From IMG/VR virus record IMGVR_UViG_3300036886_000315, positions 1 through 44,797 of that record: DNA of 44,797 bases. The stretch is one strand, 5' to 3'. The DNA comes from a virus. Under the pieces are notes generated by a model, which saw only the letters and a list, made by a program, of their open reading frames with translations, was not told where the DNA came from and did not search any database. The position numbers and the translations under genes are program-made. Positions 5,172 through 30,918 of the stretch are shown piece after piece. Positions within the stretch are counted from its first letter, which is position 1, and each line of letters opens with the position of its first letter.

Positions 5172-8100
5172 TTAATATAATACATTTACTGTACCACCAG
5201 CATCCTTATACACTAACTTACCAACATTTGTTGAAAAGTATATGCTATTGTTTGGCATTCCTACATCTGCACAACTTGCTGGTTTTATAGCACAGCTTGC
5301 TTCAATACAACCACAAATTTTTACATAATTATTATCAAATTCGCCATAAATCAACGAACATGCTGCTTTATTAGCAATATGCAATCTGCTTGAATTTGTT
5401 TCGCCACTACCTGCAGTATATCCTATTGTAACATTACAACTACCAGCAATATTATTATATAGTGTTTGATATCCAAGTGCTGTATTATGAATACCAGTAG
5501 TATTTTTTGTCATGCTTTGATAACCTATTGCAATATTCCAAGAACCGCTTGTATTACAAATAAGTGAACCTTGTCCCACAGCAATATTGTTACCACCAGT
5601 AATTGGAGCATTCGGTCCTTGCATTGTAGCATAACCAATTGCAATATTATAATTACCAGTAGTATTACACATAAGTGCATTTATACCAATTGCTAAATTA
5701 GCAGTACCACTGGTATTATAGCCAAGTGCAACACTACCCATTGCAATGTTATTACCACCCGTTGTGCTATTCATAAGTGCTTGAATACCAATACCAATAT
5801 TAGCAGTACCAGTGGTATTTTTATTCATTGCATAATAACCATTTGCAATATTATATGAACCTATTGTATTATCATTAAGTGCATTCTGACCCAATGCAAC
5901 GTTATCATTACCAGTACTATTATTTTTAAGTGCTTGATAACCAACGGCTACGTTATAACAACCAGTTTTTGCACCAGCAACTACACTTCCATACATTGCT
6001 TGATAACCAAGTACCGCATTACCAGTACCACCACTATTATAATATAATGCACCATATCCTACTCCAGTGTTGTAGCATGCAGCACAGTTATTTGAAAGTG
6101 AACTACTACCGACAGCAGTATTAAAACATCCAGTAGTTGTAAATACAAGTGAACTTCCGCCAATGCCAACATTATGACAACCAACAGTATTGTTTTGAAA
6201 TGCACCATTACCAAGTCCAATATTATCACCACCAGTTGTATTAGAATATAAAGCAAAGAATCCAAGAGCTATGTTATCAGTACCTGTAGTATTAGCTTGC
6301 ATTGCACCATATCCAATTGCAATGTCTTGTTGACCAGTTGTATTGGCTTTCATTGCATTGTTGCCAAGTGCAACATTGTAAATACCTGTTGTATTTAAAC
6401 AAAGTGCACCATTGCCAATAGCAAGATTACCAGCACCAGTTGTATTTGTTGTAAGTGCATTCAATCCAAGTGCCACGTTATCATAACCATTTGTGTTTGA
6501 TGCAAGTGCACGCTTACCAAGTGCAATATTATTAACACCTGTTGTATTTGATGCAAGTGTAGAATCTCCTTGGGCAATATTATCACAACCTGTTAAATTA
6601 TTAAATAATGCATAATAACCAATTGCAATGTTGCAATTACCAGTTGTATTACTCTTAAGTGCACTGTAACCAAATGCAATATTCCAGCAACCACTTGTAT
6701 TGCCATAAAGTGCAGCATAACCAAGACCTATGTTATGACAACCACTTGTATTAGTTTGAAGTGCAGTACTTCCAAGACCAATGTTATTAGTACCAGTTAA
6801 ATTACTTGAAAGTGCAGAAGTACCCAACGAAATATTATCTGTACCAGTTGTATTGTTTCTGAGTGAAGTAAAACCAAGTGCAATATTATAACTACCAGTT
6901 GTATTTCCCATAAGCGCAGATACTCCAAGAGCAACGTTTTGAGAACCAGTTGTATTAGTATAAAGTGTCTGACAACCAATTCCAATATTGCAACCACCAC
7001 TTGTATTTACACGAAGTGAATTTAAACCCATAGCAATATTGTCACTACCACTTATATTACTATAAAGTGCATGGCAACCTTGTGCAATATTATTGCAGCC
7101 ACTTGTGTTTTGATAAAGTGTCATACAACCTTGTGCAATATTATCACAACCAGTTGTATTAAATTGAAGTGCGCATGCACCTTGTGCAATATTATTGCAG
7201 CCACTTGTGTTTTGATAAAGTGCTAAATATCCACTTGCGAAATTATAATTACCACTTATGTTTTGACGTAAAGAGTTATAACCAAGTCCGATATTATCAT
7301 GACCAATTGTATTTGTTGTTAATGATGTATTTCCAATTGCAACGTTATTATAACCAATTGTGTTATTACTAAGTGCTGAACCACCAATTGCAATATTAGT
7401 ACCACCTGTTGTATTAGCATAAAGTGCACCAGTACCAAGTGCAATATTACCACTACCAATTGTATTACTGCAAAGTGCCTGATAACCCATAGATAAATTA
7501 TTTTTACCATCGGTATTTTTTACAAGTGCCTGATAACCAATTGCCGTATTATAACAACCACCAACAGTTTTACAAAGAGCCTCAAAACCAATACCGACAT
7601 TACCAAGACCATTAATAGTAATACTTTTACCTGCACAAACACCTATAAATGTATTACATAAACTTGTAGTACCACTTGCAATTGTTCCACACCCAATTAC
7701 TGTTGAACCATTAGTTAAATTAGACCAACCCATACCACAAATTGTAATGTCATTTGCAGTACAAGAAATACCAATACCACCACCAGCCAATAATGATTTA
7801 AATCTTAAACCATAATTAGTAGTTGTTGCATATACAGCATAACCACTACCTAAACTCGTTGCGCCAGTAATTGTCCCGCCACCACCAGTACCACCACTTA
7901 TAACACCAGTACTTAATCTACCATTTGAATCGATATATATTCCACATGTTTCTACAGTTTTTACAGGTAATCCACACACATAAACTCTGCCATTTGTAAG
8001 TGTGCCAGTACCTGAACGCAATGTTAGATTACCACCAATAGAAGTTAAACCATTTGCATCACCGCCTCTAAGATATAATGAACATGCATTTGCACTTGGA

Positions 8101-9317
8101 ACAGAAGTATCATTACCAATAATACAAAAATTATTAGGAGTTATTTTAGAAAGACAATCACCAAAAACACCTAAATAATTACTTGATGCTCCAATGTATG
8201 TACCACCATCTCCAAATAAACCTAAAACACCGCTATTTTTAGCACATAACCATAAACCGATATTAGATGTTGTACCTGCAGGTTGAACAAATACATTTGG
8301 TTTATCATAAGTATTTGAACCTAAATATATGGCATGATAAGGTGTGCCTCTACCCGGGTCTAAATATAAATAACCATCCTGATGACCACTAACATAGCCA
8401 AGACATGTACCCGGTTTTATAACTAAACTTATTGGTTGTGTTGGGTGATCATGTGCTTTAATTGTTACATTATTAGAATTTGCAGGATTACCAACAACAA
8501 GATTATCTTTTGTTATACATATACAAGTTGTACCGCTATCAAAAATTGAACCATTAATGAGATTATTACCTGCGGTATTAAATTTAGCCACATAATCATT
8601 TGTACCATTAAGCAAAACACCTTTACTTAAATTACCGCTTCCATCAATATACATTATGTTTGTTTGTGTTGATGTCGGTAAATTCGGTATTTGAATTCTA
8701 CCAATAGAAGTACCACTACCACCACTTAATACGATATTTCCACCTGCTGCACTTATTCCGTCACCACCGCTAAGTTTTAATGTTTTACCTACTTGACCAA
8801 ATGATATTGCACTACCAGCATGAAGTAATAAATCACAATATGCTGCTGAACACAATGTAAGACCATCGAGTGTTGCACCAATACAAAGACAGTTACCGCT
8901 ATAAGCTCCAATATTTACACCGCTTTGTGCAATCAATTCGATTTTTCTGTTCGATTTTGGTTTAATTGTTACTTTGCATCCGTCAGCAATATTGCCACCA
9001 AGAAGAATATTATATCTGTCTATACTAAGATTATCAGTAACAGTTGTACCACTATCAAAAATTGAACTAATCGTAATACCAGTAGTCGTACCTTTTAATA
9101 AATAATCTGTAAATCCTGATGGTACAACAAAACCGCCACCACTAATTGTAAGTGTTGTGTCACCAGTGATAATTGATAAGCCACCTGCCACTGAAATGGT
9201 CTTAAATTCTAAAGTGTTACCAGTAACGTTCTTGCATTTAAAAATGCAACTTCCAACACCAAGATTTACTCCTGTCGTGGCATTAGCAAGTAAATCTATG
9301 TTTGATCTATCTGTCAT
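5172..9317 (-). CDS. Giant repeat-rich tail fibre/adhesin
   Basis: This is a 1381-residue protein, the largest in the window. Residues 1-550 are Gly/Ser/Thr/Cys-rich fibre sequence with two GG-G linkers and recurrent segments such as IMYIDGSGNLSKG, also found in the protein at 14818. From about residue 560 to 1300 there are more than 40 copies of the 17-residue unit (NIAxGxxALxxNTTG) shared with the protein at 2694. The tail has LHIANKAACSLIYGEFD, again shared with that protein, and a short C-terminal tip ending VNVLY. I infer a long trimeric virion fibre; the two genes are probably an ancient duplication. No intramolecular chaperone (S74 type) is visible. Confidence 0.75.
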   Translation of the reverse strand: MTDRSNIDLLANATTGVNLGVGSCIFKCKNVTGNTLEFKTISVAGGLSIITGDTTLTISGGGFVVPSGFTDYLLKGTTTGITISSIFDSGTTVTDNLSIDRYNILLGGNIADGCKVTIKPKSNRKIELIAQSGVNIGAYSGNCLCIGATLDGLTLCSAAYCDLLLHAGSAISFGQVGKTLKLSGGDGISAAGGNIVLSGGSGTSIGRIQIPNLPTSTQTNIMYIDGSGNLSKGVLLNGTNDYVAKFNTAGNNLINGSIFDSGTTCICITKDNLVVGNPANSNNVTIKAHDHPTQPISLVIKPGTCLGYVSGHQDGYLYLDPGRGTPYHAIYLGSNTYDKPNVFVQPAGTTSNIGLWLCAKNSGVLGLFGDGGTYIGASSNYLGVFGDCLSKITPNNFCIIGNDTSVPSANACSLYLRGGDANGLTSIGGNLTLRSGTGTLTNGRVYVCGLPVKTVETCGIYIDSNGRLSTGVISGGTGGGGTITGATSLGSGYAVYATTTNYGLRFKSLLAGGGIGISCTANDITICGMGWSNLTNGSTVIGCGTIASGTTSLCNTFIGVCAGKSITINGLGNVGIGFEALCKTVGGCYNTAIGYQALVKNTDGKNNLSMGYQALCSNTIGSGNIALGTGALYANTTGGTNIAIGGSALSNNTIGYNNVAIGNTSLTTNTIGHDNIGLGYNSLRQNISGNYNFASGYLALYQNTSGCNNIAQGACALQFNTTGCDNIAQGCMTLYQNTSGCNNIAQGCHALYSNISGSDNIAMGLNSLRVNTSGGCNIGIGCQTLYTNTTGSQNVALGVSALMGNTTGSYNIALGFTSLRNNTTGTDNISLGTSALSSNLTGTNNIGLGSTALQTNTSGCHNIGLGYAALYGNTSGCWNIAFGYSALKSNTTGNCNIAIGYYALFNNLTGCDNIAQGDSTLASNTTGVNNIALGKRALASNTNGYDNVALGLNALTTNTTGAGNLAIGNGALCLNTTGIYNVALGNNAMKANTTGQQDIAIGYGAMQANTTGTDNIALGFFALYSNTTGGDNIGLGNGAFQNNTVGCHNVGIGGSSLVFTTTGCFNTAVGSSSLSNNCAACYNTGVGYGALYYNSGGTGNAVLGYQAMYGSVVAGAKTGCYNVAVGYQALKNNSTGNDNVALGQNALNDNTIGSYNIANGYYAMNKNTTGTANIGIGIQALMNSTTGGNNIAMGSVALGYNTSGTANLAIGINALMCNTTGNYNIAIGYATMQGPNAPITGGNNIAVGQGSLICNTSGSWNIAIGYQSMTKNTTGIHNTALGYQTLYNNIAGSCNVTIGYTAGSGETNSSRLHIANKAACSLIYGEFDNNYVKICGCIEASCAIKPASCADVGMPNNSIYFSTNVGKLVYKDAGGTVNVLY
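5400..7640 (-). repeat. Tandem array encoding 17-residue NIAxG repeats (second array)
   Basis: These are in-register units of about 51 bases encoding more than 40 repeats. Some neighbouring units are nearly identical at the DNA level: the stretch around 7090-7225 contains a near-duplicate block of TTGTGCAATATTATTGCAGC type. Local duplication has therefore occurred recently. Confidence 0.8.
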
Positions 9318-23680: not shown

Positions 23681-24775
23681 TTATAAGCTAAAACTTTTCT
23701 GTTTACGAGCCTTATTTCTAAGTTCGTTTACTTCCCTAAGTGCATTAGGGTTGAATCTTTCCCTTTTGATGATTGACACCAAGTGATTAAATTCATTTTC
23801 AGTAAGAACCTGTCCGATGTAACCTTCAGCCTTAAGTAAGTAACTCTTTGGAGCACGTATTGTTGTAGACTGACCTTCTGTATCAAGAGTTGCATCAAAA
23901 GTAAGTTCAAGAACTTCTTGAATCCTGTCGTATACATTTGCTGTCATTCTTTCTTTTGTCTTTTTCAAAGACTTTTCAAGCAAGTCAACAACACTTGTAC
24001 GATTGCTTTTCTTAAGTTCTTCATATGTTTGAGAAAACTCATTCACTGCAGTCTTATGCTGTAATTCACTAATAATTGCAAGTGAACCATAGCAGTCCCT
24101 GATCATCAAATCCCATACCTGTTCAGCGTATGTAAATGAAGGGAATTTGTCTATTGCAACAATTTCACCATCAATCAACACAATGATACCAATAAGATTC
24201 TTTGGACGTTCAAAGTGTGCAATGAACTGATCAAGTTTCTTGTCGTACTTGTCGAAGTATACGTTCAAGTAATTACCTGCACCAGAATTGGTATCTCTAC
24301 CTAATTTTTCAATTGCAGGATAAATCCTTGAATATCCGTTTGCTTTTCCAACTGAATCGAAAAGCATTTCACGCATACTTACTGGAATCATACGAAACTC
24401 CTGTGTACCACGAAAGTATCCACCTTGTGAACCTTGTACGCAACCTGCGTCATGGTAAGTTACGTTAGCCTTTGAAGGCACATAACCAGCCTTGATCATA
24501 CCATGATTCTGAGCAACCTGCTTAGTAATAACAGCCATCTGAGTAGGAAGAATAACATCTTTCTTCTCATTGTTTGTAAAACTGATCTGACCATACTGTG
24601 AATTACTTGAGGTAAGTGAAGTCAATGGATTCGCAAAGCGATCATCCATAGAATTCTCCTTATCAGTTGTTAAACATACGATTTGCATGTTCATAATTGA
24701 CTGTACCACGATGTTTCCATCCTTGTCTTTGACAGGACGGCAACCTTTTAACATTTCTGTAAGTTCTCTTTCCAT
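23681..24775 (-). CDS. ARPP-1-like (DUF6569-like) protein paired with Ro60-like gene
   Basis: This is a 364-residue soluble protein 11 bases downstream of the TROVE gene and followed at once by the terminator, so the two form a transcriptional pair. Two parts recall the ARPP-1 (DUF6569) family: a CVQGSQGG segment near residues 112-119, where the family has a Cys-x-x-Gly-type motif after a strand-rich N-terminus, and IGIIVLIDGEIVAIDKF followed by YAEQVWDLMIRDCYG near residues 195-230. The C-terminal 130 residues are helical and charged. ARPP-1 proteins have been noted beside nucleotide- and RNA-processing genes, but their activity is unknown to me. I made the match by eye; the protein could instead be an unrelated structural or regulatory partner. 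Confidence 0.45.
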   Translation of the reverse strand: MERELTEMLKGCRPVKDKDGNIVVQSIMNMQIVCLTTDKENSMDDRFANPLTSLTSSNSQYGQISFTNNEKKDVILPTQMAVITKQVAQNHGMIKAGYVPSKANVTYHDAGCVQGSQGGYFRGTQEFRMIPVSMREMLFDSVGKANGYSRIYPAIEKLGRDTNSGAGNYLNVYFDKYDKKLDQFIAHFERPKNLIGIIVLIDGEIVAIDKFPSFTYAEQVWDLMIRDCYGSLAIISELQHKTAVNEFSQTYEELKKSNRTSVVDLLEKSLKKTKERMTANVYDRIQEVLELTFDATLDTEGQSTTIRAPKSYLLKAEGYIGQVLTENEFNHLVSIIKRERFNPNALREVNELRNKARKQKSFSL

Positions 24776-26468: not shown

Positions 26469-27359
26469 TTAATTAAGTCTCTTCTGTTGTTTTTTTTCAA
26501 TATCTATTTTAAATTCTCTCATTTGAGTCCGATAACCTTCGATTTCTGTTTGTGGCGTTTTACGATTTCCACATGCAAACATATGATTAATAAATGCAAC
26601 TAATGTTAATTCAACTCTATCCAAACGATCATTTTCAATTTTTTCTGATAAAAAAGTCCGATTATCATATTTTAACGGTACTGGACTTACCGAATTGTTT
26701 CGATTGAACAATTGTAGTACTATTGGTAATCCTTTAGCATCTGTTACTTTTATTCGTTTTGCCGAATAATACTTAGGATTATATTGTTCAATTTGAAAAA
26801 ATCCCTGATTAATCCATTTCTGGTATGGTTGATTGTTCGGTTTGAAATATCGGTATTCACGTAACTTCTGATTTATTTGATGACTACTGATTTTTTTCTT
26901 TTCTTCATTTTTCTCATTCAATAATTTTGCAACTTCTGCAATTGTAAGTGTACCATTTGAAAGAACTAAAATTGGTTCGGCTGCTTTAAGTCTCAATTCT
27001 TTATATTCTTTTTCAACTTTAATAAAGTATTGCCTGATTTCTTTGCCCTTAACACTGTTTTGCACCATTGCAATTTCTTTCGCAGTATCTAAGGTCAAAG
27101 CGTATTCAATTCGATACACACTGTTCGCAAACCCCCGTTCTTCCATGCCCCCTTTTTGTGGAGTTGGAATTTTCTTACTGTTTTTGTCGTAAAATAATAA
27201 TGCAAAATCTTGGTTTTCGATAAATTCCCATTTTTCAATTTTATCTTTAATCCAAGTAGAAAAATCCTGACCAACCTCAAGAAATTTATATAAATCTCTT
27301 GCACTTACAACTGGATTTCCAGTTTTGGGACTTGCTGTAACTTTTATTAATTCTTCCAT
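26469..27359 (-). CDS. Phage antirepressor (AntA plus KilAC domains)
   Basis: This is a 296-residue protein from the ATG at 27359; a frame from a TTG at 27389 adds ten residues and is less likely. The N-terminal 100 residues are an AntA/AntB-type domain (VVSARDLYKFLEVGQDFSTW, then KIEKWEFIENQDF). After a linker, about residues 130-230 form a KilAC-type DNA-binding domain (TIAEVAKLLNEKN, NQKLREYRYFKPNNQPYQKW, GFFQIEQ, IKVTDAKGLPIVLQLF). Such proteins counter or replace repressors and are common in phages. It sits between the RNA locus and the Ro60-like gene, 20 bases before the latter, and may be co-transcribed with it. Confidence 0.85.
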   Translation of the reverse strand: MEELIKVTASPKTGNPVVSARDLYKFLEVGQDFSTWIKDKIEKWEFIENQDFALLFYDKNSKKIPTPQKGGMEERGFANSVYRIEYALTLDTAKEIAMVQNSVKGKEIRQYFIKVEKEYKELRLKAAEPILVLSNGTLTIAEVAKLLNEKNEEKKKISSHQINQKLREYRYFKPNNQPYQKWINQGFFQIEQYNPKYYSAKRIKVTDAKGLPIVLQLFNRNNSVSPVPLKYDNRTFLSEKIENDRLDRVELTLVAFINHMFACGNRKTPQTEIEGYRTQMREFKIDIEKKQQKRLN

Positions 27360-27463
27360 AATATTACTCTTAGATTTATTAGAGTTCAAATATACAAAAC
27401 ATTTTTATTAAAACAATGATTATACGTATTAAAAATTAAAAAGTTACAAAAAAGAACAAAAAA

Positions 27464-27506
27464 AATGGGTGAGTCAACACGTTTCCATGTCAAGTCCCCA
27501 CCCATT
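27464..27506 (-). terminator. Terminator-like structured hairpin ending the RNA locus
   Basis: An outer 8-bp stem (AATGGGTG / CACCCATT) encloses an inner 5-bp stem capped by GAAA (ACATG-GAAA-CGTGT). On the minus strand the structure runs directly into a T-run (plus-strand As at 27458-27465). The two-level form could also make it the 3' end of a small RNA. Confidence 0.7.
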
Positions 27507-27524
27507 GTCTTAAGAAAAACAAAT

Positions 27525-27544
27525 CTTCTCTATTAAAGGAGAAG
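27525..27544 (-). other. Small hairpin in RNA locus
   Basis: A perfect 6-bp stem (CTTCTC / GAGAAG) with an 8-base loop is followed on the minus strand by a T-rich stretch. It may be a weak terminator or processing site. Confidence 0.4.
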
Positions 27545-27553
27545 AAGTTTAGT

Positions 27554-27598
27554 TGTAATTTGGTAAGTTTGTCCCGCCTCTCAACGGACGGGATTACA
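27554..27598 (-). ncRNA. Nested hairpin RNA element
   Basis: An outer 6-bp stem (TGTAAT / ATTACA) encloses a GC-rich inner stem (CCCG plus CC paired with GG plus CGGG, one bulge; loop of 7). Such a GC-rich nested structure stands out in this AT-rich locus. It lies downstream of one copy of the 18-base repeat, as the other RNA elements do. No family recognised. Confidence 0.35.
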
Positions 27599-27609
27599 TG
27601 TTTCAATCT

Positions 27610-27627
27610 ACTGTATTCACAACAAGT
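27610..27627 (-). repeat. 18-base interspersed element (copy D, diverged)
   Basis: The plus-strand form ACTGTA-N-CACAACAAGT is related to the three better copies. It is 12 bases upstream, in the sense direction, of the nested hairpin at 27554-27598. Confidence 0.35.
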
Positions 27628-27650
27628 TCTTCTTTAAATCTTTATTTTTG

Positions 27651-27673
27651 AAAAAACTCAGCACTTCTGCTGA
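27651..27673 (-). terminator. Intrinsic terminator downstream of Y-RNA-like element
   Basis: A perfect 6-bp stem (TCAGCA / TGCTGA) with a GAAG loop on the minus strand is followed by G and six Ts. It lies about 80 bases past the last paired segment of the permuted tRNA-like RNA and probably marks its transcript end. Confidence 0.8.
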
Positions 27674-27754
27674 TAAAAACCATTCTTAACCTTGCACGTT
27701 GCAACATGCGTCAAATGTTAGGTTCAAGTGGGTTGGACTCAAATTATTGTATCC

Positions 27755-27936
27755 GTAACTCCACTTTAAAACTTGGGGAATATTTTAAAGATATTTGTTG
27801 AATTTGTTTTGAAAGTTTAACCGACTTTTGACTTAACCGCTTGTCTAATCTCGCCATTGGCGAAATGATGGATTCGAACCACCGAAATTGCTGTAAACAT
27901 CTTTCGTTTTCCCTTTGTATTTTTAAAGAACGTTAC
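27755..27936 (-). ncRNA. Permuted-tRNA-like RNA, candidate YrlA-type Y RNA
   Basis: On the minus strand a T arm (27883-27867: stem GGTGG/CCATC, loop TTCGAAT) is followed by a 3' acceptor strand ATTTCGCC, the spacer AAT and a 5' acceptor strand GGCGAGAT that pairs with it over 8 bp. Next come T8-A9, a D arm (GAC/GTC, loop with GG) and an anticodon-like arm (AAAGT/ACTTT, 27828-27812, loop CGGTTAA). Spacing obeys tRNA numbering, but the halves are in reverse order, so the acceptor stem is closed. The flanks pair in four or five segments (27895-27904 with 27787-27796; 27909-27913 with 27776-27780; 27921-27928 with 27764-27771; 27932-27936 with 27755-27759). This is the layout of Y RNAs with tRNA-mimic domains found near Ro60. 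True ends are unknown. Confidence 0.65.
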
Positions 27937-28043
27937 CCTGAAGTTTGTGTCGCCACAGGGACGACAGGGAATTAGTTTTATAAGTTTTGAAGAAATTCGT
28001 TGGTCTTGTTTTAGTTTTACTCTGATTTCAAGTCAAATTGTTT

Positions 28044-28061
28044 ACTGTAAAAACCATCAGT
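28044..28061 (-). repeat. 18-base interspersed element (copy C)
   Basis: In sense orientation it reads ACTG, ten bases, CAGT, and can form a 4-bp hairpin. Downstream it runs into AAAC and the T-arm-like hairpin at 28021-28037. Confidence 0.45.
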
Positions 28062-28148
28062 TCTTCATTATTTCTCGAAATCTACTGGCGCAGTCTTCTT
28101 GTGACTTACTTTCAACGGTGTGTGTGCCGTGACCTTTAAATTTCATTG

Positions 28149-28220
28149 TAGCGGGAGATAGATTTGAACTACCGACCTCTTGGTTATGAGCCAAGCGAGA
28201 TGCCACTTCTCCACCCCGCA
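28149..28220 (-). tRNA. Initiator-type tRNA-Met (CAT)
   Basis: This is a complete 72-base cloverleaf: acceptor TGCGGGG/TCCCGCT, D arm GAGA/TCTC with GG in the loop, anticodon arm CTTGG/CCAAG with loop CTCATAA (anticodon CAT), variable AGGTC, and T arm GGTAG/CTATC with loop TTCAAAT, discriminator A. CCA is not encoded. The 1-72 pair is a T-T mismatch and pair 11-24 is A-T; both are hallmarks of bacterial initiator tRNAs. Only two of the three usual G-C pairs are present in the anticodon stem. A strong hairpin at 28226-28248 lies just upstream in the sense direction. Confidence 0.9.
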
Positions 28221-28225
28221 GTGTA

Positions 28226-28248
28226 ATCGGTTTTTCTGAAAAACCGAT
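28226..28248 (-). other. 10-bp hairpin between tRNA genes
   Basis: A perfect stem (ATCGGTTTTT / AAAAACCGAT) with a 3-base loop lies 5 bases upstream of the tRNA-Met 5' end. No T-run follows on the minus strand; it is more likely a processing or spacer hairpin than a terminator, although on the plus strand it also lacks a T-run. Confidence 0.55.
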
Positions 28249-28291
28249 AAAAAGTATAATTAAAAGGATAATTCGTTTGTTATTTTTGTTT

Positions 28292-28362
28292 ACAATGATG
28301 GGGTTTCGACACCCCGACCTTCTGCTTTGAATGCGGACGCTCTATCTCTGAGCTAATTATTT
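28292..28362 (-). tRNA. tRNA-like element with anticodon TCA (opal), degenerate
   Basis: The minus strand shows T8-A9, a 4-bp D arm (GCTC/GAGC), an anticodon arm TCCGC/GCAGA with one mismatch and loop ATTCAAA (anticodon TCA, reading UGA), the variable AGGTC and a T arm. The T arm has a 4-bp stem GGGG/CCCC and an 8-base loop, or 5 bp and a 6-base loop, both irregular. The acceptor pairs at only five of seven positions. The D loop lacks the GG pair. It may be a divergent suppressor tRNA or a decaying tRNA gene; the gene track gives no sign of UGA recoding. Confidence 0.5.
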
Positions 28363-28380
28363 ACTGTAATAACACACAGT
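28363..28380 (-). repeat. 18-base interspersed element (copy B)
   Basis: Sense ACTG, ten bases, CAGT. It directly abuts the 5' end of the TCA tRNA-like element, which suggests a role in expression or 5' processing. Confidence 0.45.
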
Positions 28381-28392
28381 TTCCTTTTTTTG

Positions 28393-28531
28393 TGGGGAAG
28401 GGTGATTTCGAGTCACCATACAACTGTTTTACTGACAATTTGCTGTAACCATTTTTCTGTAAACACAATCAGTTCTCCAGTAAGGAGTATTACGATAGTA
28501 TTTTTGAATTTTTATTTTCGCATACTTCCCC
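28393..28531 (-). ncRNA. 139-base tRNA-like structured RNA
   Basis: The minus-strand element begins GGGGAAG-TA, the form of a tRNA 5' end with T8. It ends with a perfect T arm (GGTGA/TCACC, loop CTCGAAA) and the exactly complementary 3' acceptor CTTCCCC, then ACA. Between them are 107 bases instead of about 40, including a CTCC/GGAG hairpin, one 18-base repeat and no ordinary D arm. Upstream it shares the 10-base string AACGTTCTTT (plus-strand 28550-28559) with the leader of the permuted tRNA-like RNA (27925-27934). It could be an interrupted tRNA, a tRNA remnant or a second Y-RNA-like RNA. Confidence 0.4.
28456..28473 (-). repeat. 18-base interspersed element (copy A)
   Basis: Sense ACTG-ATTGTGTTTA-CAGA, inside the 139-base element; a half-related copy (GTTACAGCAAATT) follows 15 bases later. 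Confidence 0.4.
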
Positions 28532-28662
28532 GTTTTGTTTCAATTTTAAAAAGAACGTTTGTCCTAAGACGATGCAAACATAATACGCATTTTTTTAATA
28601 TGCAAGTGTTTTCCAATTTATTTTAAAAAAAATTTATATTTGTTTCAGTCGTAGTCGGATAA

Positions 28663-28670
28663 ATAAATAC
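28663..28670 (-). promoter_or_regulatory. GTATTTAT motif at the head of the RNA locus
   Basis: A sense GTATTTAT copy lies between the helicase stop and the first RNA element, which would place the transcription start of the RNA locus here. Confidence 0.5.
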
Positions 28671-28710
28671 GCAGTATGTTTAAAAAAGTTTCAAAATTTA
28701 TAAAATATTT

Positions 28711-30918
28711 TTATTTTTTTATTATATCTGGTTGATGAAGTTCATGATTTCGTAATCTCTTAAATACGTCCACTTGATCAACTGGTGGGGCATCTGGGTC
28801 AATAAGTAATTCTGTCTTTTCAATCTCTTCTCTTCGTTCTTTTGTTAAAATTTCTACTGGAAGTTTGTGTTCTGGTGGCAAATATACTCTATTATTTTTA
28901 TTAATTTCGTCATATTTTTGCACAACTGTTTCCACAATTATTTCTTTTGGTGGCGAAATATCTTCCAATTTTACTTCAGTTTCATTAACATTTACAGTAA
29001 AAGTTTCTCCACTCCAATCCAATAAACTGTCATTTTTTATCTGTTTTTCATGAAAATCAGCTTCAGGATGAATATTTACACCCTCATTTAATCCCTCACT
29101 TACTCCCTCATTTACTCCCTCAATCTTTACAGTTTCATCAATTTCCAGTATATCATCTTTCTTTGTAGTCTCAATTGCAGTATTTTTTACACCATCATTT
29201 ACACCCTCAGTTACACCATCATTTACACCCTCAGTTTCATTCAATGTCTTTTGTGCAAAATCTACAATCTGTTTTAATTCTTCACTGTTTAAATCACGAG
29301 TTGTACTAATATGTATATTTTCAATTGTTGCATTTTCAGTTTTAACTAATTTATCAAATTGCGTTAAATCAACGGGGTCATCCAATTTTATGTGATCATT
29401 AATGTCTGGAGCGTTCAATCTACCCATAAGGCTTCCTTCACTATGCTTGCTAATTATAGCATGCATTTCCAGATCAGATGATTTTTTCAGTATTTCATTT
29501 GCAGTATCATTAACTTTATTAACGTCATCTTCAGTTTGTTTTCTCAGTGTTGTTTTTAGTGGATATCTCTTATCTTCAATACGAATTTCCATTGTATCAT
29601 TATTAAAGATACAATCAGTGAATGTTTGTCCATCTTGTGCAAACCTTGCTTTAATAATACGTATACTTGCAAGATTAGCTTCTTTTTGATCTGCAGTTTT
29701 AGCGACACTCATAAAGAAATGTGCTTTTTGCACCCTCTTAATGCTACCACCAGTCTGATATGCTTCCACGTATTCTGCATTAAAACCACTGCGATTAGTT
29801 TGTATTGCAGTCCAAGCAGGTATATCAAAATCTGCAGCCAGTGCTTCAAATGATTTTATAATTACAAGTTCTGCTTCGTTTCTATCAGGAGATTTTTTAT
29901 GTGATTCAAGACAGTCAAGATAGTCAAGAACTAATATGTCAAATTTAATACCAAATTTCTTCTGGTAGCCAATCATCCACCTACGAATATCCATCATAGT
30001 AGTATTTTCCTGACTAAATCTTTTTATAATAAGGTTACCTTTGCCAGACATATCAACTGCTTTCTCATGCGCAATCCTGTTAACTCTTATATTTTCAAAT
30101 TCATCATCCAGTTTACTTAATGATGATTTTGCCCAGATAGTAAAGTGTTTACGTTGAATCTGTTCTTTAGTATCTTCGAATATAATCTGACAAACATTCT
30201 TCTGATCGTCATATGCACTGTTAGCAATTACTGTAAGCATTGTTGTTTTTCCAACACCTGAAGGAGTTAATATTACACCAATTTCTTGTTTACCCAAACC
30301 ACCACCAGTTAAAGTATCAATAGCAAATATGCCTGTTGGAATCGTCTGACGAAACTCTTTTCTTAATGCATGTTCAATGTTATCAAATACGCTTATGCCA
30401 TAATCTTCATCGTCACCAATATGTTGAACTTTATTGAATTTTTCTTCTATTAAAGCAATTGTTGTTTTCTTTCTGATATCACCATTCTTGGTTGAAGTTA
30501 TTATGAATTCACCAGTTTTTCTATATTCTTGTTGCTTAATAAAATTAGTTGTTTCCCTTCTTACTACATCACCCTCATACAATATTTGTTTATTTATAAC
30601 CCTTTCATTCCATAGTTCAATCTTCTTAATTACCGCAAATAAAGATTCTTCCTCAATAATATTATTGGGAGTTTTATAAGTATTAATCGCTTGCTGTATA
30701 CTTTGATTTTGAAGATTTGGGACTTTTTCGTGTGCTTTGAAATATTCAAGAATTATAATAAAAAGTCTTTTAAGATATGGGTCATCAAAATATTCAATAG
30801 CTAAGTTTGGAATTGTTTTTTCTGCAAACTCTGGTTCGACCAGTAATTGCCACATAAGACGTTGTTGAAATTCAGGACCTAAATAAGCACTTAGGGTATG
30901 TTCGGTATTTTCAGCCAT
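28711..30918 (-). CDS. DnaB-type replicative helicase with repetitive C-terminal tail
   Basis: This is a 735-residue protein. Residues 1-110 resemble the helical DnaB N-terminal domain (AYLGPEFQQRLMWQLLVEPEF). The RecA-type ATPase core has Walker A TPSGVGKTT at 218-226, Walker B FDILVLDYLD at 326-335, and a Q-T-N-R-S sensor segment near 383-387. As in T4 gp41 it should form a hexameric ring that unwinds DNA at the fork. From about residue 455 there is an unusual tail of about 280 residues, charged and low in complexity, with EGVNDGV-type repeats at 562-615. It is first of the leftward group 31671-28711 and is preceded by a long inverted repeat. Confidence 0.9.
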   Translation of the reverse strand: MAENTEHTLSAYLGPEFQQRLMWQLLVEPEFAEKTIPNLAIEYFDDPYLKRLFIIILEYFKAHEKVPNLQNQSIQQAINTYKTPNNIIEEESLFAVIKKIELWNERVINKQILYEGDVVRRETTNFIKQQEYRKTGEFIITSTKNGDIRKKTTIALIEEKFNKVQHIGDDEDYGISVFDNIEHALRKEFRQTIPTGIFAIDTLTGGGLGKQEIGVILTPSGVGKTTMLTVIANSAYDDQKNVCQIIFEDTKEQIQRKHFTIWAKSSLSKLDDEFENIRVNRIAHEKAVDMSGKGNLIIKRFSQENTTMMDIRRWMIGYQKKFGIKFDILVLDYLDCLESHKKSPDRNEAELVIIKSFEALAADFDIPAWTAIQTNRSGFNAEYVEAYQTGGSIKRVQKAHFFMSVAKTADQKEANLASIRIIKARFAQDGQTFTDCIFNNDTMEIRIEDKRYPLKTTLRKQTEDDVNKVNDTANEILKKSSDLEMHAIISKHSEGSLMGRLNAPDINDHIKLDDPVDLTQFDKLVKTENATIENIHISTTRDLNSEELKQIVDFAQKTLNETEGVNDGVTEGVNDGVKNTAIETTKKDDILEIDETVKIEGVNEGVSEGLNEGVNIHPEADFHEKQIKNDSLLDWSGETFTVNVNETEVKLEDISPPKEIIVETVVQKYDEINKNNRVYLPPEHKLPVEILTKERREEIEKTELLIDPDAPPVDQVDVFKRLRNHELHQPDIIKK
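29076..29235 (-). repeat. Coding repeats (EGVNDGV type) in helicase tail
   Basis: Short units encoding E-G-V/L-N/S-D/E-G-V recur in two clusters, on the plus strand visible as repeated CCCTCATTTA and CCATCATTTA strings. They lie in the non-catalytic tail and could expand or contract. Confidence 0.7.

Follow-up and report, generated by a model that had tools for sequence, protein, structure and literature searches.

A phage small-RNA array in which one two-helix domain is combined with an interrupted tRNA-like RNA and a circularly permuted tRNA

Locus and RNA array

The window, i.e., the whole stretch of DNA that was analyzed, is a virus record of 44,797 bases in which most of the long ORFs lie on the minus strand. 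Its source is a virus of bacteria. An antirepressor-like gene (26469-27389) and a DnaB-like helicase gene (28711-30918) flank the noncoding region that contains the element. The 3' part of the helicase gene carries 12- and 24-base tandem repeats (29074-29236). In loci L057 and L059-L062, the helicase match (6001-9279) spans 3279 bases for 722 residues, and an insert of approximately 1.1 kb, i.e., an intein, an intron, or another insert, is likely there. An ARPP-1 domain (PF20208, E 5e-15) was found in the window gene at 23681-24775.

The element is a member of a phage small-RNA array, in which a common two-helix domain is combined with interchangeable tRNA-like or stem-loop modules. All modules of the window are on the minus strand. 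The element itself, module M1A, is a tRNA-like RNA with an interrupted D loop (28394-28531, 5' end at 28531). The others are M2, the domain around a tRNA-like body with a short AU acceptor (28264-28386), an ordinary tRNA-Met (CAU) called by ARAGORN and Rfam (28149-28220), M5, the domain around an anticodon-stem-loop-like hairpin (27988-28067, hairpin 28021-28037), M6, the domain around a circularly permuted tRNA (27776-27913), and M7, the domain around a GC-rich hairpin (27540-27633). At the array end, a long GC-rich inverted repeat followed by T8 (27454-27509) appeared terminator-like by eye. In locus L005, which is from a near relative of the window, a PD-(D/E)XK endonuclease gene (PF11645, E 7e-42) was placed between M2 and tRNA-Met (8766-9197); it may encode a free-standing homing endonuclease that targets the tRNA array.

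Two putative signals were recognized upstream of the element. The 10-base string which an earlier note on this DNA had reported as common to the element and the leader of the permuted RNA is AACGTTCTTT, and it was located at 28550-28559 (minus strand) and 27925-27934. The copy at 28550-28559 resembles a boxA antitermination string. GTTCTTT occurred within 70 nt upstream in 42/53 relatives of the element, where approximately 0.017 would be expected per 70 nt, and in just 8/42 permuted-tRNA modules. A promoter-like TTG-N20-TATGTTTG was predicted at 28574-28605 (minus strand), which has the form of the Bacteroidota -33/-7 promoter.

Structure of the element

The perfect 7-bp acceptor, T8, and the perfect 5-bp T stem were present on the minus strand as had been described. 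The acceptor is formed by GGGGAAG (28525-28531) and CTTCCCC (28394-28400), with U8-A9 at 28523-28524 and the discriminator position at 28393. The T arm, GGTGA-CTCGAAA-TCACC, lies at 28401-28417. No D arm had been obvious to the earlier note, but there is one, split by an insert: TGC (28520-28522) is matched with GCA (28441-28443), and G18-G19 (GG at 28449-28450) and the 3' half of the D arm occupy 28441-28450. An anticodon-type arm was found as well (28423-28439), with the loop CAGTAAA and without U33. The T loop (CTCGAAA) of the window copy is unusual, and its D arm has one extra base.

The insert of approximately 67 nt extends from about A14 to G18 (28451-28517, borders approximate) and is composed of an A-rich linker and the two-helix domain. 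From the 5' side, it comprises the helix B 3' strand AAATAC (28498-28503, partner 28461-28466), a segment complementary to the 5' exon (CGTAATACTCC, 28484-28494), the helix A 5' strand GGAG (28475-28478, partner CTCC at 28484-28487) followed by AAC (28472-28474), and the helix B 5' strand GTGTTT with ACAGAA (28455-28466), the latter being mostly WCAGTA in relatives.

By a geometry scan, i.e., seven Watson-Crick acceptor pairs, T8, a 5-bp T stem, and a YTCRA loop, spaced 40-170 nt apart, the arrangement was found once on the two strands of the window and in 0/100 dinucleotide shuffles. The single-sequence fold of the element had a z of -2.58, with 2/200 shuffles equal or better. Its MFE structure contains the acceptor, the T arm, helix A, and a UGCGA/UCGUA hairpin between exon and insert. 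Helix B was absent from the MFE and appeared in the centroid only; the anticodon arm was in neither.

ARAGORN called only the tRNA-Met in the window. Rfam at the gathering threshold gave two tRNAs, i.e., the tRNA-Met and a tRNA-like body at 28292-28362, and the element was not among them. Judged as a canonical tRNA gene, i.e., a continuous cloverleaf recognized by ARAGORN or the Rfam tRNA model, the element does not qualify.

The two-helix domain

One strand of the domain reads helix A (5 bp), AAC, four bases, helix B (7 bp), and WCAGUA; the other reads about ACAAN, helix B, nine bases, and helix A. The element has the order helix B, nine bases, helix A, loop, helix A, AAC, helix B, and CAGUA. 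Here the tRNA encloses the domain, whereas in the other modules the domain encloses the cargo. The comparison showed the same domain as the terminal stem of the permuted tRNA, the tRNA-like body, the anticodon-stem-loop, and the hairpin of the array.

A total of 175 domain copies of five types were collected (40 M1, 30 M2, 37 M5, 36 M6, and 32 M7), M5 and M7 being separated by cargo length alone. The copies were chosen by pairing, so their pairing percentages are inflated. The helix sequences differ by module type, and AAC and CAG stay. In the nine-base strand, two bases outside the selection criteria were A in 90% and T in 92% of the copies. A closure of the hairpin by ACTG/CAGT was also considered, and it was dropped, being broken by variants such as GAGAACTCG and GGGAAAACG.

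Among 54 loci, many of them partial, co-occurring modules keep the relative order M2, tRNA-Met, M5-type, M6, and M7-type. M1 is placed first or between tRNA-Met and M6. Below the gathering score, Rfam gave weak and probably chance matches at 27390-28720, and no family fits the domain; in loci L045, L093, L099, and L111, nothing beyond tRNA and weak matches was detected. No description of the domain was found among journal papers, as judged by titles.

Relatives and covariation

Relatives are IMG/VR contigs reached via the helicase, the T-arm string, or domain strings, and they form a non-random sample. The helicase protein search of IMG/VR gave 75 loci and the exact 24-base T-arm string gave five stretches. 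With the element as query, nhmmer gave 49 hits, from which 32 sequences were aligned. In 98 sources, a covariance model of M1 detected 62 places that scored 84 bits or more; the next score was 45. Some loci overlap or are repeated, and the 62 places correspond to 54 distinct sequences, 22 of which were outside the training set of the model.

In the alignment of 32 sequences, 97.4% of 925 pair cells were kept. Twenty of 29 pairs were changed on both sides, as compared with a shuffled mean of 10.9 and 0/500 shuffles as high. When the partners were slid by 1-3 columns, pairing fell to 48-56%. The two 7-base acceptor strands, on which the earlier note had asked for covariation, paired at all seven positions in 32/32 sequences (100% of cells), and 6/7 pairs were doubly changed. 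Double changes were also found in 5/5 pairs of the T arm, 4/5 pairs of the anticodon arm, 3/7 pairs of helix B, and 2/5 pairs of helix A. The number of further pair types was within the shuffle range (59/500). RNAalifold recovered 27 of the tested pairs from the same alignment. In the element, the acceptor, anticodon, and T arms of a tRNA body are paired and covary, and the domain is inserted in the D loop via A-rich linkers.

The seven acceptor pairs were intact in 53/54 sequences; the exception, L026, has lost the 5' part. This copy (L026:10408-10536) is an interrupted tRNA without the 5' acceptor part, in which the remainder is kept. In locus L005, approximately 77 bases directly upstream of the element (8379-8455) are extra relative to the window.

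The model was also run on whole records. Strong matches (at least 97 bits) were found in 12/16, one or two each, and all were within the array so far as checked. G011 showed a 33-bit match only, and G010, G012, and G013 showed none. In blastn against named phages (147 and 23 records), all of the matches listed (20 and 12) were on the tRNA-Met part. One domain pattern searched in bacterial and archaeal genomes gave four stretches, none of them with the surrounding tRNA parts by eye.

The earlier note had also offered a tRNA remnant, i.e., a decaying tRNA gene in which the acceptor match survives by chance. The window copy is indeed atypical, with its odd T loop, and neither it nor the two nearest copies tested, L005 and L078, gave an ARAGORN call even after the insert was excised. 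The 62 places, the compensatory changes in the acceptor and T arm, and the kept relative order of the array stand against decay; at the level of the family it was rejected, and we consider it extremely improbable.

Excision of the insert and pairing with the 5' exon

The insert was removed in silico; the excised segment started at about nucleotide 17 and ended immediately ahead of G18-G19. ARAGORN then called a tRNA in 48/53 M1 copies, as compared with 2/54 intact ones. With the cut shifted by -12, -6, +6, +12, +20, and +30 nt, 13, 46, 35, 10, 0, and 0 of 53 were called. ARAGORN tolerates a 6-nt shift, so the D loop is the insert site and the exact borders are not fixed by this assay. Together with the compensatory changes in the tRNA arms, the excision supports the interrupted tRNA that the earlier note had proposed.

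The anticodon loops of M1 are varied, with a UGA triplet in 29/54. As parsed, U33 was present in 37/54 and absent in 17/54, and a few anticodon arms were misread (L093_2162, L099_5072, L093_1918, L026). Some bodies look ordinary: L040 (Glu UUC) and L045 and L046 (Lys UUU) have U33, a 4-bp D stem, and canonical anticodon loops. An insert-free tRNA-Glu-like body, homologous to the L040 tRNA, was found in L122, L129, and L131, and its D loop, AGT/TGGATA, is empty exactly at the L040 insert site. The linkers from domain to tRNA vary from 1 to 8 nt (31 in one misparse) on one side and from 6 to 16 nt on the other, and no conserved splice-site sequence was found at the tRNA ends.

Where the domain sits in a D loop, tRNA nucleotides 4-10 are complementary to its nine-base strand and the adjoining bases. 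Among 17 sequences, 97.5% of cells pair and 3/7 pairs are doubly changed. The duplex score of 32 sequences had a mean of 17.1, against at most 16.2 in 500 among-sequence permutations. When the best register was taken and G-U was allowed, 32 of 54 sequences had 7/7 pairs, 20 had 6/7, one had five, and one had four. The partner tracks acceptor changes in L007, L014, L040, L045, and L099, and it does not track them cleanly in L092, L025 (10085), and L053 (7707). Two roles are conceivable for this complement, a splice guide or a folding intermediate.

The first of these belongs to an explanation which is possible, if on the doubtful side: that the domain is a new kind of splicing signal or small ribozyme for interrupted and permuted tRNAs. 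The domain would be excised from the D loop of the element, where the 5'-strand complement docks the 5' exon. In M6, a circle would form as the ends are joined upon its removal, and RNase P together with 3' processing would open this circle between CCA and the 5' end. The tRNAs called after excision, the exon-insert pairing that follows acceptor changes, the empty D loop of the L040 homolog, and the canonical Lys and Glu bodies are in agreement with splicing. The variable linkers without a conserved splice-site sequence are not, and the tolerance of 6-nt cut shifts (46 and 35 of 53) leaves the splice sites unpinned.

The permuted tRNA

Forty-three M6 modules were found and 42 were parsed, L065 being unparsed. 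Their order is T arm, 3' acceptor, linker, 5' acceptor, D arm, and anticodon arm; i.e., the 3' half lies upstream of the 5' half and the acceptor strands pair across the linker, as defines a permuted tRNA. The neighboring RNA that had been called permuted is a real permuted tRNA by sequence. When the parts were put in tRNA order, with the junction trimmed by rule and no shuffled control, ARAGORN called 42/42, against 0/42 as they stand; this de-permutation also agrees with splicing. In the 42 sequences, 99.7% of 1343 cells pair and 19/32 pairs are doubly changed (0/500 shuffles). For the acceptor helix alone, 99.3% of cells are paired and 7/7 pairs show double changes.

N-CCA follows directly after the acceptor in 28/42 linkers. 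Nine of the 42 linkers measure just 4-5 nt, and in one of these UUCG forms the loop; the window linker is 5 nt without CCA. The ends of M6 are clamped by the domain helices of 5 and 7 bp (42 sequences).

These features bear on another reading, by analogy with two-piece tmRNA: M6 would give a two-piece tRNA, held by the domain after its linker is cut by RNase P and 3' nucleases, M1 would be the one-piece counterpart, and both would function in translation with the extra arm kept. The encoded N-CCA and the clamped ends are as such an RNA would need. The linkers of 4-5 nt, the UUCG loop, and the often missing U33 do not suit it, and in M1 the clamp is needless. The two-piece reading is clearly improbable.

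U33 is absent from 16/42 M6 anticodon loops. In 32/47 sequence pairs with an identity of 85% or more over the remaining positions, triplet 34-36 differs. The per-site difference was 0.28 in the anticodon loop and 0.20 in the acceptor (0.31 if the acceptor is excluded from the identity cut), as compared with 0.12-0.14 in the anticodon stem and 0.02-0.10 in the other parts tested. Fast variation in M6 is thus seen in both of the regions in which tRNA identity usually resides. In M1, the anticodon loop is barely more variable than the rest (identity 0.85 vs. 0.89), and 27/69 pairs differ. Hypervariability specific to the anticodon loop was considered and was weakened by the equally variable M6 acceptor helix. 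Because the M6 acceptor varies like the anticodon loop and the M1 loop is hardly variable, no anticodon-specific arms race is demonstrated.

Comparison with known RNAs and searches for processing genes

Algal permuted tRNAs are processed at a bulge-helix-bulge (BHB) motif, and the resulting circle is opened between CCA and the 5' end. BHB-type tRNA genes of algae and archaea resemble the present ones: the pieces of both interrupted and permuted tRNAs are joined through one common motif, the D arm may contain an intron, and the permuted genes consist of a 3' half, a linker, and a 5' half. For algae, one study describes a motif that serves both interrupted and permuted tRNAs (PMC3978253), a pattern in favor of splicing. 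The present case differs by the two-helix domain with AAC and CAGUA loops, the junction in the variable loop, the lack of a consistent BHB at the junctions, and the occurrence in phages of bacteria without EndA (16 records). In a loose BHB test, 16/53 M1 sequences were positive against 158/1060 shuffled ones, and 24/42 M6 sequences against 245/840. BHB splicing was rejected as a candidate: the excess is about twofold over shuffles, but the recurring register is inside helix B, not at the junctions.

The EndA splicing endonuclease was found in 0/16 phage records, some of which may be fragments, and RtcB in 0/13 related phage records. Rnl2-type RNA ligases were detected in 7/13 related records, which would suit splicing, but also in G010 and G012, both without the element.

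Group I introns of bacterial tRNA genes are similar in that they, too, are inserts that contain a sequence complementary to the 5' exon. The insert described here is different: it is approximately 67 nt long, lies in the D loop and not near the anticodon, and has no Rfam intron match. Group I and II introns were searched in Rfam, and none was found at E up to 5 in 27390-28720 or at E up to 0.5 in L045, L093, L099, and L111. In the table of a 2014 review, the only bacterial tRNAs with introns are those with group I introns; its text places group I and II insertions at 37/38, and permuted tRNAs are listed there for archaea and algae only (PMC4033280). An undescribed phage tRNA splicing system, in which the domain is excised from D loops by means of a 5'-exon guide and from permuted-tRNA ends via circular RNAs, without a BHB motif, a group I/II core, or phage EndA or RtcB, is rather unlikely.

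The second Y-RNA-like RNA that the earlier note had further proposed is a possible reading. The domain is common to the element and the neighboring permuted RNA, but the Ro60/TROVE gene was found in 0/13 related phage records, and the Y RNA families of Rfam had no match in the array region. Bacterial YrlA-type Y RNAs resemble M6, with a terminal stem and a tRNA-mimicking module, i.e., the permuted tRNA body. The RNAs of this array are different in that they have a full anticodon arm, several module types, and an interrupted form, with neither Ro60 in the 13 records nor an Rfam Y RNA match. YrlA carries a tRNA-like domain, for which a competitive role against an anticodon nuclease has been suggested (PMC7790460).

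M6 also differs from two-piece tmRNA: it is tRNA-sized, has an anticodon arm and ends held by a conserved domain, and no tmRNA was called. The likeness lies in the permuted precursor, with acceptor ends inside, of a two-piece tmRNA made from permuted ssrA.

Possible role of the domain

We tentatively prefer the reading that the domain is retained in the mature RNA as a mount for tRNA mimics, with confidence a little short of even. Retention is favored by the fact that the tRNA arms covary, as do both helices of the domain, and by the conservation of the domain across 175 copies despite type-specific helices. The bodies of M2, M5, and M7 would yield no tRNA even if spliced, which also favors retention, and under splicing these modules would yield odd circles. 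The variable linker lengths are expected of tethers and not of fixed splice sites. Loops without U33 are frequent (17/54 in M1 and 16/42 in M6), the M6 triplets differ in 32/47 pairs, and acceptor loops of 4-5 nt occur in 9/42, all of which point in the same direction.

Maturation to real tRNAs, against retention, is favored by the ordinary-looking Lys and Glu bodies (L045, L046, and L040) and by the N-CCA encoded in 28/42 M6; splicing, too, gains from the encoded CCA. Retention is weakened by the M6 acceptor helix varying as fast as the anticodon loop, by the barely elevated variability of the M1 loop, and by the absence of Ro60 from 13 records.

If the domain is retained, it would hold or protect the RNA ends, or bind a protein. 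It would project from insertion-tolerant corners of the L shape, i.e., the D loop, the variable loop, and the acceptor end. The array RNAs may then be tRNA mimics or variant tRNAs and not ordinary decoding tRNAs, for example bait or resistant substitutes for host enzymes acting on tRNA during infection. The complement of the 5' strand might guide co-transcriptional folding and be displaced after synthesis of the 3' acceptor strand. Phage tRNAs in which anticodon-loop changes allow evasion of host nucleases have been reported (PMC10264068).

D-loop-interrupted and permuted phage tRNA genes with one common domain would extend disrupted tRNA genes to bacterial viruses. The existence of tRNA splicing with another signal in phages would become testable. 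With a retained domain, the array would amount to several tRNA mimics that share one mount, and this is relevant to how phages respond to tRNA-targeting defenses. The array may represent an unrecognized RNA-processing or host-mimicry system.
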